A stretch of 64,000 nt of DNA from Solwaraspora sp. WMMD406 (GTDB lineage Bacteria > Actinomycetota > Actinomycetes > Mycobacteriales > Micromonosporaceae). The stretch is taken from the NCBI RefSeq assembly GCF_029626025.1, contig NZ_JARUBF010000001.1:5178001-5242000 (forward strand), in the 5' to 3' direction. A program made the translations under genes and the position numbers. Below the pieces are notes generated by a model that did not search any database, was not told the DNA's origin, and worked only from the letters and a program-made list of their open reading frames with translations. The stretch's first letter is position 1. Every line of letters starts with the position of its first letter. Below, in pieces: positions 28,626 through 36,695 of this stretch.

Positions 28626-29279
28626 ATGCGCATTTCAGACCTCAGTCGGCATACCGGCGTGCCCGTCGCCACGATAAAGTTCTATCTACGGGAACGCTTG
28701 TTACCACCCGGCACTCCGACCGGCCGCAACCAGGCCACATACAGCGACATGCATCTTCGACAGCTCCTCCTCATTCGGGCATTTACTAATATTGCCGATC
28801 TGGATCTGTCCACGGTCCGTGAGTTGCTGGACGCCATCGACAATCCCGCGCTCTCCCTGCCGGATCTCTACGACGTGACGGACCGCGCGTTGTTCGCCGA
28901 CTGCTCGGCCAGTCGGGATCCCGACGGCGTGCAGCAGGCCCGGGGAGACGTCGACCAGCTGGTCGGCCTGATGGGATGGACCGTCGGCGACGACGCCCCC
29001 GGCCGGGATCGGTTGGCGGTGGTGCTAGCGGCGCTGCGCCGGCTCGGCTGCGACAACAAGATCACCTTCTTCGTTCCCTTCGCCAACGCCGCCGAGGGCC
29101 TGGCCGAGCAGGAGCTGGATCTGCTGCCCAGCGAGTGCGCCGACGACGACCGGGCCGCCGCGGTGATCCGCAGCGTGCTGTTCGGAGTGGTCTTGGCGAC
29201 GATCCGCCGGCTGGCCCAGGAGCACGTGGTGGCGCAACGGTTCGGTGCGGCACAGTCCGCCGCCGCCCAGCCCAGCTGA
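28626..29279 (+). CDS. MerR-family transcriptional regulator
   Basis: This is a 217-residue regulator. The N-terminal winged helix is MRISDLSRHTGVPVATIKFY followed by the MerR wing and a dimerisation helix (LSTVRELLDAI). The C-terminal ~130 residues form an effector region without Cys clusters, so a small-molecule ligand is likelier than a metal. AAGGGG lies 5 nt before the ATG. It is divergent from the SCP2-DUF1702 pair and convergent with the MFS gene. A hexanucleotide repeat begins 13 nt after its stop. Confidence 0.88.
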   Translation: MRISDLSRHTGVPVATIKFYLRERLLPPGTPTGRNQATYSDMHLRQLLLIRAFTNIADLDLSTVRELLDAIDNPALSLPDLYDVTDRALFADCSASRDPDGVQQARGDVDQLVGLMGWTVGDDAPGRDRLAVVLAALRRLGCDNKITFFVPFANAAEGLAEQELDLLPSECADDDRAAAVIRSVLFGVVLATIRRLAQEHVVAQRFGAAQSAAAQPS

Positions 29280-29292
29280 CCGCGACAGGATG

Positions 29293-29334
29293 CTGGCACT
29301 GGCACTGGCACTGGCACTGGCACTGGCACTGGCA
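29293..29334. repeat. 7 x CTGGCA hexanucleotide microsatellite
   Basis: Seven perfect copies of CTGGCA lie in the convergent spacer after the MerR gene. Perfect short repeats of this length are uncommon in actinobacterial chromosomes and are prone to slippage. Confidence 0.95.
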
Positions 29335-29487
29335 CCGAAAGCTCCGCGACGAGCCGCCAACCGTACGCCGATCCATCGCCTCGGCGCCCGTATCTGATCA
29401 GGCTCTCGGCCGAAGAAGCCCGAAGGCCGTCCCGCTGCTCCCACCGCCGAGACCCTCCCCCATCACCGCACACCTGCCCCAGCCACG

Positions 29488-30753
29488 TCACACCTGCGCG
29501 GCCTGCTTCGCCGGCCGCTGCGGATCATCCACCGTCGGCAACTCGCGCATCGTGCGCAGCGGAGACAAGAAGGTCGGCAGGAACACCAGGGTCTGACAAA
29601 TCGCCGCCACCACCAGGGTGGTCCGGGCACCGAGATACTGTCCGAGCACCCCGCCAGCGAGCGCACCCAGCGGCATCGTCCCCCAGACGAGAAATCGCAT
29701 GCTGGCGTTGACCCGTCCGAGCAGCCGGTCCGGGGTCAACCGTTGCCGGAAGCTCAGCTGCGTGATGTTGTAGATGACCGAGCCGAACCAGGCGATCGCG
29801 GCACCGGTCGCGGCGAGCCAGAGCAGCCAGCCGCGCTGCGCCAACGGGATCAGCAACTCGAACGGCGAACTGGCGGCCATCGCGATCCAGATCGTCCGCC
29901 CGTGGCCCAGCCGATCGGCGACGCGCTGGGCGGCGAGCGCCCCGACCAGAGCTCCGGCGCTGCAGAGGGAGAAGAACACCCCGATCGTACCCGCCGACAA
30001 CCCGAGGTCCCGGGCGAGTAGCACGATCAGCATCGCGTTCGTCATGGCGGCGAGGAAGTTCGCCGCACCGCTGCACGCCGCGATCGGCCGGAGCAGCCGG
30101 CTGCGAAGGACGAACCGCAGACCCTCCATGATCTCGCGCCGCAGGTTCGCGTCCGGGGCCGGAGCCGGTTGCTGCTCGACCTGCCGGATCCTGGTGACGA
30201 CGAACGCCGACGCGAGGTAACCCACGACGTTCACGACGACGGCGAAGGGAGCGGTGATCCACTGCACCAGCAGACCGGCGACGGTCGGACCGGCGATCTG
30301 GTTGACGCCTCGGGCTCCCTCCAACTTGGCGTTGCCCTCGAGAAGGTGATCGGCGCCCACCAGGTACGGCAGGTAGGTCTGGTGCGCCACGTCGAAAAAG
30401 ACCGTCAACCCACCGGCCAGCAGGGCCACCACGTAGAGCTGGGGCATCGTGAGCAGCCCGGTCCACCACGCCAGCGGCACGCTGGCCAGGATCACCGCTC
30501 GGCCGAGGTCGGCGGCCACCAGGACGCGACGGCGGCGCAGCCGGTCGACCCAGGCCCCGGCGGGCAGACCGATGAGCAGAAACGCCGCGGTCTCGAACGC
30601 GGCCAGCAGACCGACCTCGAACCTGCTGGCCTCCAGTGACAGCACCGCGACCAACGGAAGCGCCAGACTGCTCACCTGCACGCCCAACTGACTGATGACG
30701 TCGGCCATCCACAGCTGCCGATAGTCGAACTGCCGCAACAGACCGAGGCGCAT
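29488..30753 (-). CDS. MFS exporter (MFS_3/EntS-like)
   Basis: This is a 421-residue major facilitator with about twelve hydrophobic segments; LRQFDYRQLWMADVISQLG is the typical first helix, WVDRLRRRRVLVAADL the cytoplasmic loop motif, and FRQRLTPDRLLGRVNA the central loop seen in EntS-like exporters. It likely expels a small molecule in exchange for protons. Being divergent from the ycaO operon it could export that product. The ATG at 30753 fits the family; an in-frame GTG at 30804 would add 17 residues. Confidence 0.87.
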   Translation of the reverse strand: MRLGLLRQFDYRQLWMADVISQLGVQVSSLALPLVAVLSLEASRFEVGLLAAFETAAFLLIGLPAGAWVDRLRRRRVLVAADLGRAVILASVPLAWWTGLLTMPQLYVVALLAGGLTVFFDVAHQTYLPYLVGADHLLEGNAKLEGARGVNQIAGPTVAGLLVQWITAPFAVVVNVVGYLASAFVVTRIRQVEQQPAPAPDANLRREIMEGLRFVLRSRLLRPIAACSGAANFLAAMTNAMLIVLLARDLGLSAGTIGVFFSLCSAGALVGALAAQRVADRLGHGRTIWIAMAASSPFELLIPLAQRGWLLWLAATGAAIAWFGSVIYNITQLSFRQRLTPDRLLGRVNASMRFLVWGTMPLGALAGGVLGQYLGARTTLVVAAICQTLVFLPTFLSPLRTMRELPTVDDPQRPAKQAAQV

Positions 30754-30858
30754 CTTCACGAAAGCAGCCTCGCCACTGATCAGCCAGACGTCAAGTATGT
30801 CCACTCAGCACCATTCAGCGCGTCGCGCTCGGGCAGCCCGCAGAGAGCAACCTCGAAG

Positions 30859-32202
30859 ATGCGAGCCGGCTGCCGCGCCATTCAGGATTGGCCGCAGGTC
30901 GATGACAGGTTGTTGACGGATCGTTGCGGCACATTGTGTCCGCTCGATTTCATGGAGGCGGTTGCCCTGGACGCAATGGTGGAGTTCGACGCCAACAAGT
31001 CCTATCGCGACGGCACCGATCGGGCAATCTCCCCAGCGGAAACCCTGCGCCGAATCACACCTCATCTGCCGGCAATGGGAATTACCCGAGTCGCCAACGT
31101 GACTGGCTTGGACCACATCGGCGTACCGGTCTACATGGCCGTACGACCCAACTCCCGCGGCCTCGCTGTCGCGCAGGGAAAAGGACTCACCACCGAGGCC
31201 GCCAAGGTTTCGGCAATCATGGAGTCGATCGAGTCCCACCACGCCGAGCGAATCAGCGCGCCGCTGGTCCTCGCGTCGTGGGACGAACTCAGTCAGGACC
31301 GACGTCTGATCGACGCCGATCTGCTGCCGACCGTGAACGGTACGCCGCTGCGACCCGACCGGCGGATCCTGTGGATCGAGGGTAGCGACCTGATGAGCGA
31401 CGAGCCCGTCTGGTTGCCCTTCGACGTGGTGCACAACGACTACAGCGGTGCCTCGTTGGCCGTCCAGTCGCCGTTCCCGATCACCTCGAACGGTCTCGCC
31501 TCGGGCAACCATCTGCTGGAGGCGACCAGCCACGCGATCTGCGAGGTGATCGAACGCGACGCCGAGGCTCTGTGGCTGATCACACCGCCCGACGTCCAGG
31601 ACCGCATGCGGATCGACCTGAACACCGTGGACGACCCCGCCTGCCAGCACGTACTCGCCCTGCTGCAACGGGCCGGCCTCGCCGTCTCCGTACGGGACAT
31701 GACCACCGACATCGGCCTGCCGTGCTTCATCGCCGACATCGCCGAGAACCCGCGAATCGCGGTGAGTCCGGTCGCCGTGTCGCAAGGACAGGGCTGTCAT
31801 CCGCGTCGCGAGATCGCGTTGCTGCGAGCCCTGACCGAGGCGGTCCAGAGCCGGCTGACGGTCATCGCCGGCTCCCGCGACGACTTCTTCCGCAGCGAGT
31901 ACCTGCGGGCGACCGATCCGCGCAACCGGGAAGCCGCGTGGACGGCCTGCGCCAAGGGCGACACCCCACGGCGCTTCACCGACGTGGCGACCCGCAACAA
32001 CACCAGCTTCGAAGCAGACCTCGCGCACGAGTTGGCCGCCCTTCGGGCGGCGGGGATCCAGCAGGTCGTCCGGGTACGGCTCGGCGGCGAGCAGCTCGGG
32101 ATCTCGGTCGTCCGGGTGTTCATCCCCGGGGTGGAACACGCGGTGACCCCGGACTCCTACCACCCCGGCCCGCGCGCGCGACGACTGCAGGAGGTCGCAT
32201 GA
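30859..32202 (+). CDS. YcaO-domain ATP-dependent cyclodehydratase/thioamide synthase
   Basis: This is a 447-residue YcaO protein. ATP and Mg residues are recognisable in MESIESHHAER, ICEVIERDAEAL and ALTEAVQSRL. YcaO enzymes phosphorylate a peptide backbone amide so that a nucleophile can attack; those paired with TfuA install thioamides using sulfide. It lacks the C-terminal PxPxP of azoline-forming YcaOs, in line with TfuA partnership. The start is uncertain: ATG 30859 is given, while ATGs at 30952 and 30976 also fit because homologous sequence begins near SYRDGTDRAISPAETL. Its stop overlaps the tfuA start (ATGA). Confidence 0.9.
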   Translation: MRAGCRAIQDWPQVDDRLLTDRCGTLCPLDFMEAVALDAMVEFDANKSYRDGTDRAISPAETLRRITPHLPAMGITRVANVTGLDHIGVPVYMAVRPNSRGLAVAQGKGLTTEAAKVSAIMESIESHHAERISAPLVLASWDELSQDRRLIDADLLPTVNGTPLRPDRRILWIEGSDLMSDEPVWLPFDVVHNDYSGASLAVQSPFPITSNGLASGNHLLEATSHAICEVIERDAEALWLITPPDVQDRMRIDLNTVDDPACQHVLALLQRAGLAVSVRDMTTDIGLPCFIADIAENPRIAVSPVAVSQGQGCHPRREIALLRALTEAVQSRLTVIAGSRDDFFRSEYLRATDPRNREAAWTACAKGDTPRRFTDVATRNNTSFEADLAHELAALRAAGIQQVVRVRLGGEQLGISVVRVFIPGVEHAVTPDSYHPGPRARRLQEVA

Positions 32203-33566
32203 CCGTGCACGTGTTCCTCGGCCCCACGCTCAGCGTCGACCGGGCCCGGGAACTGCTCCCCACCGCCACCTTCCTGCCCCCGGTGAGTCAAGGCGACGTA
32301 CTGCGCTCGACCGCGCGCCGACCGTCCGCCATCGGCATCGTCGACGGCCGGTTCCACGACGTGCCGGCGGTCTGGCACAAGGAGATCATGTGGGCGATCA
32401 GCCGGGGCATCCCGGTGTACGGCAGTGCCAGCATGGGCGCGCTGCGCGCCGCCGAGCTGGCGCCGTTCGGGATGCGCGGCGTCGGTGAGGTCTTCGACGC
32501 CTACCACAGTGGTGCGTTGAACGACGACGACGAGGTCGCGGTGGCCCACGGCGACGCCGAGGACGGCTATCAACCGCTCAACGAGGCGATGGTCAACATC
32601 CGGGCCACCCTTGCCCTGGCGGTGACCCAGCGAGTGCTGACCGAGGCGACCGCCGCCGAGCTGGAGCGGATCGCCAAGGCGACCTACTACCTGGAACGCG
32701 GCTATCCGCAGATGCTGCTCGACGGGGCACAGGCCGGGCTGCCGACCGACGAACTCGACGCGCTGCGGGCCTGGCTACCGGGCAACCGGGTCAATCAGAA
32801 GGCCCGCGACGCCGAGGAGATGCTGCGGCTGATGGCGCGGGAAGCAGACGTCAAACCGGCACCGGCGACCTTCACCTTCGAGCACACCGCTTTCTTCGAA
32901 CAGGCTCGGCAGACCGCCGGCGAACTCAGCGAGGCGGCTTCCGGCGACGGTGAGACACCGGCCGGGCCCGCCGCCGTCAACGCGTTGGAGATCCTCGACG
33001 AGCTGCGCCTGGATCCGGTGCGCTACCGGGCGGTCTGGGAGCGCGCCGGGCTCCGCGCGGTGGTGGACGGCTCCCATCCGGGCGCGCCGGACAACCTGCC
33101 GCAGGCGGCGGCACGGTTCCGGCGGGAACGCGGGCTGACCGGCACCGCCGAGACCCGGGAATGGCTGACCGCCAACGATCTCGACGTCGAGCACTTCGGC
33201 ACGATCGTCGGGATCGAGCAACGGGTACGGGACGCAATGGATCAGCTCGGCGAGATCATGCCGCTGGCCGTCGTCGACCTGCTCCGCGTCGACGGCGAGT
33301 ACGCCGCGATGATGCGACGGATCATCGAGAAGCGCGAGATCCTCGCCGCGCACGGCCTCGATCGGCCGGCCGACGTCACCGACGACGACACCACCCGGCG
33401 GGAACTCCGCTGGTATTTCGACGCGATCGGTCAACCGCAGCCGGAGGCGCTGGACAGCCACTGGCGCCCGCTCGGTTTCGCCGATCAGCGAGGTTTCCTG
33501 CGAGCCGTACGGCGGGAGTTCAACTACCGCCGGCTCGCCTGTTCAAACGGAGGGAGGGAATCATGA
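32199..33566 (+). CDS. TfuA-like protein, YcaO partner
   Basis: This is a 455-residue protein. The N-terminal ~200 residues are the TfuA core (VHVFLGPTLSVDRARELLP, then IGIVDGRFHDVPAVWHKEI and YGSASMGALRAAEL), which assists YcaO in thioamidation, probably by sulfur delivery. The C-terminal ~240 residues are mostly helical and of no family I recognise. It is translationally coupled on both sides: ATGA with ycaO before it and ATGA with the small peptide gene after it. Sulfur would have to come from a general cellular source, since no rhodanese or sulfurtransferase gene adjoins. Confidence 0.9.
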   Translation: MTVHVFLGPTLSVDRARELLPTATFLPPVSQGDVLRSTARRPSAIGIVDGRFHDVPAVWHKEIMWAISRGIPVYGSASMGALRAAELAPFGMRGVGEVFDAYHSGALNDDDEVAVAHGDAEDGYQPLNEAMVNIRATLALAVTQRVLTEATAAELERIAKATYYLERGYPQMLLDGAQAGLPTDELDALRAWLPGNRVNQKARDAEEMLRLMAREADVKPAPATFTFEHTAFFEQARQTAGELSEAASGDGETPAGPAAVNALEILDELRLDPVRYRAVWERAGLRAVVDGSHPGAPDNLPQAAARFRRERGLTGTAETREWLTANDLDVEHFGTIVGIEQRVRDAMDQLGEIMPLAVVDLLRVDGEYAAMMRRIIEKREILAAHGLDRPADVTDDDTTRRELRWYFDAIGQPQPEALDSHWRPLGFADQRGFLRAVRREFNYRRLACSNGGRES

Positions 33567-33736
33567 AGGACATCACCGTACCGGCGTGGGCGGAGGAGCC
33601 GGTCGCGCTCGTCGCGGCCAAGGGCAACTACGCGGTCATGGCGGGCAAGGGCCAGGCCACCCGCATGCGGGTGGCGCCGGGCGCTGCCGAGCTGGCCGCT
33701 GCCGACGCTGAGGCGCTTCTCGCGCCGCTGAGCTGA
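33563..33736 (+). CDS. 57-residue peptide coupled to ycaO-tfuA (candidate RiPP precursor)
   Basis: This is a 57-residue, Ala-rich (17 Ala), Cys-free peptide. It starts MKDITVPAWAEEP, has a central Gly-rich segment KGNYAVMAGKGQATRM, and ends in an Ala/Leu/Glu helix-like tail. The GGAGGGAGGG ribosome site is the strongest in the operon, and the ATG overlaps the tfuA stop (ATGA); a perfect terminator follows 9 nt after its stop. High predicted translation and coupling fit a RiPP substrate, with the Gly-rich middle a candidate thioamide region. No leader/core boundary or Cys/Ser/Thr-rich core is visible, so it might instead be a small accessory protein. Confidence 0.72.
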   Translation: MKDITVPAWAEEPVALVAAKGNYAVMAGKGQATRMRVAPGAAELAAADAEALLAPLS

Positions 33737-33745
33737 CGCAACGTC

Positions 33746-33777
33746 TGAAGCCCGGGCGGGACGCCGCCCGGGCTTCA
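33746..33777 (+). terminator. strong hairpin terminator of ycaO operon
   Basis: A perfect 14-bp stem (33746-33759 with 33764-33777) with a GACG loop begins 9 nt after the small peptide stop. It marks the end of the three-gene operon. Confidence 0.85.
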
Positions 33778-34361
33778 GCTTGCTCTCGCGTCCCCGGTAC
33801 CGAGCACCGCGTCTGAGCTGCTTATCCTCGTCAAGCAGACGATCCTGGCGTCGGTGCTCGGTGCCGGGCGGGGCATCGCGACTGCCGATGATCACGGGAT
33901 CGGCGGCCAGTAACCCGATCGGGTAACTCCGCCGAAAAGCTCGCCCGGCGCGGACGGCCGGTCGCCGTCGTCGTCGTCGGGGTGCCGGAACGATCGACAA
34001 CGACATCCCGTACATCGATCAGAGTTCCAGGCCCATCCCACCGGTGACGACGGTACCGCTGAGCCGGCCACCGACGAACGAGCCGCCCGTCGGGTAGAGG
34101 ACGCGACGACGGCCGTACGGGGGTGACACCCACATCGCGGATGGCACCGAGTTGGACGGTGACTCATAGCACGAGCCGTCCCCGCGTCGGCGACCCGTCG
34201 GCACCGGGCATCCGCTACCTCCGGCGTGCGTCGGGCCGCTGGCGGTGGCGGTGGCGGGTGCCAGCGGCTCCAGGACCGCGGCGCCCCGAGGTTGACGCAG
34301 GGGCACATGACGAAGGCCCGGTCGGGGTCACCGAATCCGGACCTTTGCCTAGTGATGTTCA
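33778..34361. other. 584-bp spacer between ycaO operon and tRNA genes
   Basis: I see no credible protein gene here. A hairpin with one G-U pair at 34313-34345 (9-bp stem) lies downstream of tRNA-Val in its direction of transcription and may end the tRNA transcript. The side next to the tRNA 3' end would be the expected position for integrated elements, but no integrase or obvious att duplication is in view. Confidence 0.45.
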
Positions 34362-34436
34362 TGGTGGGCGATACTGGGTTTGAACCAGTGACCTCTTCCG
34401 TGTCAAGGAAGCGCGCTCCCACTGCGCCAATCGCCC
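34362..34436 (-). tRNA. tRNA-Val (GAC)
   Basis: On the minus strand the molecule starts GGGCGAT and ends ATCGCCC-A with an encoded CCA. The D stem is GCGC/GCGC, the anticodon stem CTTCC/GGAAG with loop TTGACAC (anticodon GAC), and the T arm ACTGG-TTCAAAC-CCAGT. It is the last of three tRNAs in one transcript. Confidence 0.97.
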
Positions 34437-34445
34437 TCGTCTGAG

Positions 34446-34516
34446 AGGTGGAGACGGGATTTGAACCCGTGTACACGGCTTTGCAGGCCGTTGCCTCGCC
34501 TCTCGGCCACTCCACC
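34446..34516 (-). tRNA. tRNA-Cys (GCA)
   Basis: On the minus strand the acceptor is GGTGGAG/CTCCACC with a T discriminator and no encoded CCA. The anticodon loop CTGCAAA gives GCA, and the T loop is TTCAAAT. It lies between tRNA-Gly and tRNA-Val. Confidence 0.97.
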
Positions 34517-34551
34517 GAGGTTGCCCCCGACGTGCTGTGGCGGCATCTCCG

Positions 34552-34624
34552 AGCGGACGACGGGATTCGAACCCGCGACCCTCACCTTGGCAAGGTGATG
34601 CGCTACCAGCTGCGCTACGTCCGC
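34552..34624 (-). tRNA. tRNA-Gly (GCC)
   Basis: On the minus strand the acceptor is GCGGACG/CGTCCGC with a T discriminator. The anticodon stem TCACC/GGTGA has loop TTGCCAA (anticodon GCC), and the T loop is TTCGAAT. It is first of the three-tRNA operon. Confidence 0.97.
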
Positions 34625-35541: not shown

Positions 35542-36417
35542 TCAGCCGAACGACGCCAGCGTCGACACCACGCCGTCACGGGTCGACCTCCCGTCGACGA
35601 CCAGCACCCGGTGCCGGCGGCGCACCGTCTGCCCCGCCGGCACCGACAACGGCTCTTCGAAGGCGAGCGCGACGCACACACCGGGATAGATTCCGGTACG
35701 GACGAACCAGTGGTCCCCCGGGGACAGACCGGTGAAGATCACGCTGTACGGCTCACCGGCCGACCCTTCTCCGTTCACCGCCACCCAGGGCTCGGTGCTG
35801 CCGTTGACGGCGTCCTCCCCGTCCGCCGCGCTGGTGAACGCGAACGGACTCCCCGGGGCGAGCCGCCAGAAGAACCCGCCGTACCCCGCGCCGCCCGGAC
35901 GGCCGTTCGTCGCCGGGCTGCCCAGGCTGATCTCCCGGTCCGCGCCGGCGGACAGCTCGTACGCGATGTCGAGGCACCACGCGTCAGACCGTCCCGGCAC
36001 CGCACCGGCGGCGACGACACGCTCCTCGGTCAGCAAGGTGGCGCCGGTCGGGTCACACCAGCGCAGGCGCTGCCGGAACCCGGCTGGGCCACGATCGAGC
36101 CAGGCGTCGTGAGTGATTCGGCCGTGGTCGTCGCGCCAGGTGTAACCGGCGTCCCGGACATAGGTCCGCCCACCCCACAGGTTGGTGCCGGCGACGTCCT
36201 GCATGGTCACCGAGACCCCCAGATGCCAGCGGTGGTCCTCGGGAAGGGTGTCGGTGACCGGTACCCCGGCGAGGGTACGAACCGGGTGCAGGTACGGACG
36301 GGGCGAGTACCGGGGATCCACGTCGGGCCAGACCACATACTCGGCCACGGTCCGCCCATGCACCGCGAGGGTCACCGGGTCCGCCGATTCGTCCGTACCG
36401 TTTGTCGACACTGCCAC
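35542..36417 (-). CDS. PmoA-like (DUF6807 type) protein
   Basis: This is a 291-residue protein with the beta-sandwich blocks of the 'methane oxygenase PmoA' family (not methane monooxygenase itself): RPYLHPVRTLAGVPVT, HRWHLGVSVTMQDVAGTNLWGG, then GYGGFFWRL and the C-terminal VRRRHRVLVVDGR. Such proteins usually accompany carbohydrate-utilisation genes, and their role is unclear. The GTG start at 36417 has GGAGG 7 nt upstream. There is no signal peptide, so it is probably cytoplasmic. It is convergent with the TetR gene and 278 bp from the divergent FUSC gene. Confidence 0.78.
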   Translation of the reverse strand: MAVSTNGTDESADPVTLAVHGRTVAEYVVWPDVDPRYSPRPYLHPVRTLAGVPVTDTLPEDHRWHLGVSVTMQDVAGTNLWGGRTYVRDAGYTWRDDHGRITHDAWLDRGPAGFRQRLRWCDPTGATLLTEERVVAAGAVPGRSDAWCLDIAYELSAGADREISLGSPATNGRPGGAGYGGFFWRLAPGSPFAFTSAADGEDAVNGSTEPWVAVNGEGSAGEPYSVIFTGLSPGDHWFVRTGIYPGVCVALAFEEPLSVPAGQTVRRRHRVLVVDGRSTRDGVVSTLASFG

Positions 36418-36498
36418 GACACCACCTCCGGAAAGCGCTTGCCCAGATCGTCGAGCGTACCCGCTCAGACCAGACCTGCAGCCGGACCGCCGCCCGGA

Positions 36499-36618
36499 CC
36501 CGCGGGCAGACCGCAGCCCGGACCCGCGGGCGGGCCGTAGCCCGCACCCGCGGGCAGACCGCAGCCCGGACCCGCGGGCGGGCCGTAGCCCGCACCCGCG
36601 GGCAGACCGTAGCCGGGC
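36499..36618. repeat. 5 x 24-bp intergenic tandem repeat
   Basis: Five 24-bp units starting CCCGCGGGC alternate between two sub-variants (…AGACCGCAGCCCGGA and …GGGCCGTAGCCCGCA), so the higher-order period is 48 bp. Each carries the palindrome CCCGCGGG. It lies between the divergent PmoA-like and FUSC genes. Confidence 0.9.
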
Positions 36619-36695
36619 CGGCGACATCGGCCCGGACCGCTCCGGACGGGTGCTGGGTCGGCGCATGAGCGCCGCCGGGCAGGGTAGGTGGCGGG

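Follow-up and report, generated by a model that had tools for sequence, protein, structure and literature searches.

The closest described counterparts of the locus considered here, a compact operon of ycaO, tfuA and a gene for a 57-residue peptide, are gene sets that make thioamidated members of the ribosomally synthesized and post-translationally modified peptides (RiPPs). In Streptomyces varsoviensis, varA, varY and varT (encoding precursor, YcaO and TfuA, respectively) are reported to give thiovarsolin B on their own, with no cluster protease in the gene set as that report describes it, and deletion of the major facilitator superfamily (MFS) gene of the cluster is reported to leave production unaffected (PMC6511847). 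More recently, a 2026 preprint described the YcaO-TfuA pair StdGH, which thioamidates an Asn residue of a small precursor (PMC13174530). In its discussion, an eLife paper asked if the part of TfuA lies in binding or in sulfur delivery (PMC5589413), and the protein was later credited both with cleavage of ThiS and with raising the affinity of YcaO for its substrate (PMC8939145). A Ser-Lys pair in TfuA is now reported to cleave ThiS-COSH, with the sulfide being passed to YcaO (PMC13185837). Here we describe a ycaO-tfuA operon in a 64,000-nucleotide window of the Solwaraspora sp. WMMD406 genome (NZ_JARUBF010000001.1, positions 5,178,001 to 5,242,000), to which the coordinates below refer.

The best reading of this operon, in which we place moderate confidence, is a minimal thioamidated-RiPP locus. 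We favor it because the models nearest to both enzymes are those for McrA thioamidation, because two residues of TfuA, Ser78 and Lys201, are invariant among its relatives, and because a homologue of the small peptide is encoded in a ycaO-tfuA locus of another genus (genome G009). The original prediction, made from the sequence alone, had proposed a thioamide RiPP of a new type and had seen novelty in the minimal gene content. The first half of that proposal stands as the best reading, but minimal gene content has a precedent in thiovarsolin B, for which precursor, ycaO and tfuA are enough (PMC6511847). Rather, what is new is the sequence of the precursor and, chiefly in our view, a second, probably SurA-like domain of TfuA, which was overlooked when the locus was said to hold no extra modifying enzyme.

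All three genes lie in a row on the forward strand and, as originally described, are joined by two ATGA overlaps (32199-32202 and 33563-33566). Specifically, ycaO (30952..32202, 416 residues) is followed by tfuA (32199..33566, 455 residues, two domains) and by the gene for the candidate precursor peptide (33563..33736, 57 residues). The start of ycaO had been placed at 30859, which would give 31 more residues; the ATG at 30952 is more likely because, in the G009 copy, the equivalent codon opens the longest open reading frame (ORF). Ribosome sites are poor at both candidate starts. The site of tfuA is AGGAGG and that of the small ORF is GGAGGGAGGGA, which makes it arguable whether the small gene has the best site of the operon, as had been claimed.

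YcaO and TfuA are recognized by Pfam at 1.6e-77 (PF02624) and 7.6e-47 (PF07812), and each is the only member of its family in the 7.16-Mb genome. The nearest NCBIfam models, TIGR03266 for YcaO (234.8 bits, below the cut-off of 365) and NF033432 for TfuA (205.1 bits, below the cut-off of 235.2), both describe McrA-glycine thioamidation. The ATP-motif stretches of YcaO are found, and the protein aligns to solved MJ1094 over residues 49-426, in the numbering of the longer reading, at 1.1e-33. The TfuA domain proper spans residues 1-212 (32199..32834), of which residues 5-212 match solved 6xp8 in a profile comparison. Ser78 and Lys201 lie within this domain, are kept in all 87 aligned full-length relatives (that of the window counted) and probably correspond to the reported Ser-Lys pair. 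Five places in the genome belong to the ThiS family. At the level of sequence, the motifs of the two enzymes and the adjacency of their genes are those of a YcaO-TfuA thioamidated-RiPP locus.

The remaining approximately 240 residues of TfuA (213-455; 32835..33563) form an all-helical extra domain in a structure model with a pLDDT of 86.9 and a pTM of 0.73. To align this domain, we began with TfuA proteins from 94 loci (L046 excluded as lying on the same contig as L033), removed 7 outside the range of 420-490 residues to leave the 87 used for the count of Ser78 and Lys201, and then dropped 4 by domain length and 14 as near-identical. TIGR04500 matches the second domain in 33 of the 69 members that remained (window, 4.9e-6; best, 5.5e-14), and hhalign aligns TfuA residues 265-348 to TIGR04500 proteins at 94.6% and 7.2e-8. 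The matched stretch in those proteins (residues 112-196) coincides with a Pfam SurA_N_3 match (118-194, 5.4e-4, under the cut-off), and the proteins themselves occupy graspetide loci with a TIGR04497 precursor and a TIGR04187 maturase. When compared with the whole of TIGR04500 (PpiC_rel_mature), TfuA of the window gives 26 bits, against a cut-off of 180, and covers profile positions 140-187 only. Judged from these alignments, the second domain is kin to a part of TIGR04500 and not a member of that family. MirC, which belongs to TIGR04500, is reported to be a SurA-like partner protein essential for maturation of the graspetide rosaritide, with both of its domains required (PMC13097080). We found no description of a two-domain TfuA or of a SurA-like TfuA domain in the main texts of the open-licence literature, in searches that did not pair TfuA with PpiC or trigger factor.

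The small ORF encodes 57 residues with no Cys and one Ser, as first reported. It also has two Thr residues, and so the accompanying claim that azoles are ruled out was too strong. Likewise, the Gly-rich middle proposed as a possible site was overstated, and a core there is not supported: residues 20-36 include three Gly, and Ala makes up 17 of the 57 residues. GC content at the three codon positions (0.77/0.54/0.91) is distributed as in a high-GC coding sequence, and the peptide has no match in Pfam, NCBIfam or PHROGs, including the NHLP models. We considered a repeated core, since residues 14-31 resemble two copies of a nine-residue unit, and rejected it when 258 and 508 of 5,000 shuffles matched the score.

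A homologue of the peptide was expected beside ycaO-tfuA in other actinomycetes, and one was found, narrowly, in a single genus. Of 300 genomes from the same family (Micromonosporaceae), 66 (the source genome counted) encode a protein that matches TfuA at 1e-20 or better; G009 (68%) and G094 (50%) come closest. The gene order in G009 is ycaO, tfuA, a frame-broken second ycaO and a 46-residue ORF, which has AGAAGGGAAG ahead of its start. The second ycaO (L032 7128-8370) resembles the first and is either a damaged duplicate or an artifact of assembly. The two peptides have in common a C-terminal stretch, AEL..A...ALLAPL, which occupies residues 42-57 of the window peptide. Their Smith-Waterman score of 62 is reached by none of 20,000 shuffles in either direction (maxima 55 and 51), and the 46-residue ORF ranks first among the 145 ORFs of 20-120 residues in its 19-kb stretch.

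Several observations weigh against a conserved precursor. The peptide is found in two genomes only, and a search of the whole G009 genome places the homologue second (E 0.86), after a chance match at 0.40. A two-row profile built from the pair and run against 354 same-family genomes matched 84 of them at E 0.1 or better but gave nothing convincing besides its two source sequences, the best outsider (E 0.0047) lying within a long ORF. The peptide is also missing from both other members of the TfuA clade. In Hamadaea, a genus of the same family, a 57-residue ORF between ycaO and tfuA (L033 4753-4926) is unrelated, its score being equaled by 10,625 of 20,000 shuffles. The TfuA of Streptomyces fuscichromogenes falls in the same clade as that of the window with support of 98/85 (in a tree from which 22 of the 94 sequences were left out as near-identical), and no similar ORF lies near its enzyme pair, the best of 99 ORFs scoring 42 on the opposite strand about 4 kb away.

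With the 57-residue peptide as the probable substrate, a route to a thioamidated product can be proposed. YcaO and ATP would activate one or more backbone amides of the peptide, and the N-terminal domain of TfuA would supply sulfide, probably through Ser78/Lys201 cleavage of a ThiS-type thiocarboxylate. Many other RiPP systems use a RiPP recognition element (RRE) domain. Here, the fused, probably SurA-like domain of TfuA may take the place of an RRE, either by binding the precursor or by keeping the enzyme complex together. The modified peptide would presumably be trimmed by housekeeping peptidases and exported. By the precedent of thiovarsolin B, precursor, YcaO and TfuA could be enough for a product.

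More tentatively, two-domain TfuA might constitute a portable thioamidation chassis in which this arm, not an RRE, recognizes precursors. In the window, it might grip the AEL..A...ALLAPL stretch as a follower, with the core in the N-terminal half of the peptide. The usual RiPP order is leader and then core, which a follower would reverse. Recognition by such an arm would account for the occurrence of one YcaO-TfuA pair across phyla with unrelated peptides encoded upstream, between or downstream of the enzyme genes.

Two-domain TfuA proteins are spread over many phyla and stand next to small ORFs of unrelated sequence. These small genes were called with an in-house ORF scorer rather than a published gene finder. 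A non-exhaustive contig scan for TfuA relatives, in which a match to either of two short peptide patterns was a condition, gave 243 relatives; of the best 80, which were considered, Hamadaea came first, at 47%. Among 394 genomes of the class, only the source genome has a TfuA match past 1e-60. Plasmids with a TfuA match numbered 256 records, two of which cover at least 80% of the protein, the better one at 40%. One Azospirillum oryzae plasmid encodes a 65-residue hypothetical protein (L163 4405-4602) directly upstream of ycaO and a 250-residue TfuA, which is matched at 63% over residues 3-214.

Thirteen of the 94 loci (L047, L058, L068, L071, L073, L074, L080, L083, L084, L085, L087, L116 and L121), which belong to Myxococcota, Pseudomonadota and Chloroflexota, encode upstream of ycaO a family of peptides marked by a CYLINL..IR-like stretch at the C terminus. 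Scans of two members (L074 and L087) gave no NCBIfam or Pfam name, and the family is likely one of precursors. The window peptide shows no kinship to the peptides encoded upstream in other two-domain loci: on the profile of that family it scores -0.7 bits, a value attained by 1,609 of 5,000 shuffles, and the G009 peptide scores 1.2 bits (294 of 5,000). In three genomes of the family to which the window belongs, ORFs of 49-54 residues with V(D/E)PADVHG(A/E) ends lie directly upstream of ycaO-tfuA (L037 7320-7469, L039 7458-7622 and L041 9823-9981) and form a candidate precursor family. Five further loci (L038, L040, L042, L044 and L045) have NHLP-looking small proteins upstream of YcaO-TfuA, one per set with a Cys-rich CACCCPCC-like tail.

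Small genes also follow tfuA, as does a 79-residue ORF in a Solirubrobacterales bin (L059). In Actinopolymorpha rutila (L067), tfuA is followed by an NHLP-type precursor that scores under the cut-off in NCBIfam and over it for Pfam NHase_alpha. As evidence of a RiPP role for the pair this precursor counts as weak support only, since the locus also has a SagD-type YcaO cyclodehydratase, which may be its enzyme, together with a second NHLP peptide 2-5 kb further on. A constant enzyme pair with a varying small ORF agrees with a substrate-binding arm that is undemanding about sequence, and also with substrates encoded elsewhere.

The latter possibility, in which YcaO-TfuA thioamidates a cellular protein as the methanogen pair does McrA, with the small ORF as regulator or passenger, is in our judgment rather unlikely, although it is the strongest of the alternatives. 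The McrA-modifying pair supplies the nearest models for both enzymes, the peptide is seen in just two genomes, and several loci with the same pair, those of Ruegeria and its kin among them, lack a small gene that our ORF scorer rates as convincing within 700 bases. Set against this are the overlap of the peptide gene with tfuA and the homologue at the G009 locus. In addition, the pair is specific to the strain and lies next to a tRNA hotspot, a setting ill suited to a housekeeping modification.

This setting is defined by comparison with six other genomes of the genus. All six have a shared block that starts at the 3´ end of tRNA-Val (34362..34436, reverse strand) and extends rightward from 34362. 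To the left of the tRNA, over the 8.6-9.2 kb compared, the six genomes have no match to the window, except that three match over short stretches at 33.9-34.2 kb. Because the genus block ends at tRNA-Val and the operon side is not common to the genus, the operon is accessory and lies beside a tRNA hotspot. The cluster of tRNA-Val, tRNA-Cys and tRNA-Gly at 34362-34624 is itself an insertion hotspot, and in one of the six genomes (G034) a phage-type integrase (L158 2988-4163; PF00589, 2e-12) adjoins the tRNA. A search of the window for an attachment-site repeat of the tRNA-Val end gave no second exact match longer than 11 bases.

It is distinctly less probable that the product of the small ORF serves YcaO-TfuA as an accessory subunit or a binding partner rather than as a substrate. 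Its most conserved part, the Leu/Ala-rich C-terminal stretch, could be a contact helix, and the homology to G009 spans no obvious hypervariable core. However, a partner-like domain is already present in TfuA, and the small genes beside the same pair vary among loci, as substrates should. We regard a different backbone modification by YcaO, for example azoline formation at either Thr residue, as highly improbable; YcaO proteins do make azolines, but this one scores 234.8 bits on the thioamidation model versus 117.8 on the SagD type, is accompanied by a TfuA with conserved Ser and Lys, and has no flavin dehydrogenase or RRE partner called beside it. Equally improbable is that the small ORF is spurious, because the shuffling result, its first rank among 145 ORFs, its ribosome site and its codon pattern outweigh the indifferent whole-genome search in G009 and the insignificant nine-residue repeat.

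Beyond the three genes themselves, a hairpin follows at 33745..33778 on the forward strand. The original prediction of a perfect terminator is right about the stem, which has 15 base pairs, no mismatches and a four-nucleotide loop, but there is no T run, and the hairpin is absent from the list of a terminator scan. The folding energy of the 64-nucleotide stretch that holds it is -40 kcal/mol (z -4.3). On the other side, the divergent MFS transporter gene proposed as the exporter is present (29488..30804, reverse strand; PF07690, 1.3e-35), but there is no support for its membership in the unit or for a role in export. The genes called around the G009 locus include no MFS gene, and the best match in the six other genus genomes reaches 48%. 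Two ORFs of the window, at 29245-29397 (ALALAL-type) and 36402-36668 (TARTRGQ-type), are simple repeats and indicate short tandem repeats in the DNA.

If the thioamidated-RiPP reading and the proposed role of the second domain are right, the operon offers a compact three-gene route to thioamides and connects thioamide RiPPs with graspetides that depend on a partner protein, which were described only recently. A fused partner-like domain also makes substrate choice by YcaO-TfuA testable.

Among known systems, the thiovarsolin cluster resembles the window in combining a precursor, YcaO and TfuA with a nearby MFS gene, dispensable in its case. It differs in the repeating APR core of its precursor, whereas no repeat in the window peptide is significant, and in the additional genes varO, varL and varS, as far as its published description goes. 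The std cluster likewise has a YcaO-TfuA pair, a small precursor and an MFS gene (PMC13174530), but it adds five further enzymes or domains, and its modified Asn lies in an SNKEWQE motif that is absent from the window peptide. The McrA-glycine thioamidation pair of methanogens supplies the nearest curated models for both enzymes, yet its TfuA (6xp8) is a 217-residue chain that lacks the second domain, and its substrate, a large protein, has its gene elsewhere (PMC5589413). Finally, MirC is related in sequence to the second domain of TfuA, is SurA-like and is needed to modify its own precursor. Unlike that domain, MirC is a separate protein with a weakly RRE-like N-terminal domain, and it serves an ATP-grasp enzyme rather than a YcaO (PMC13097080).

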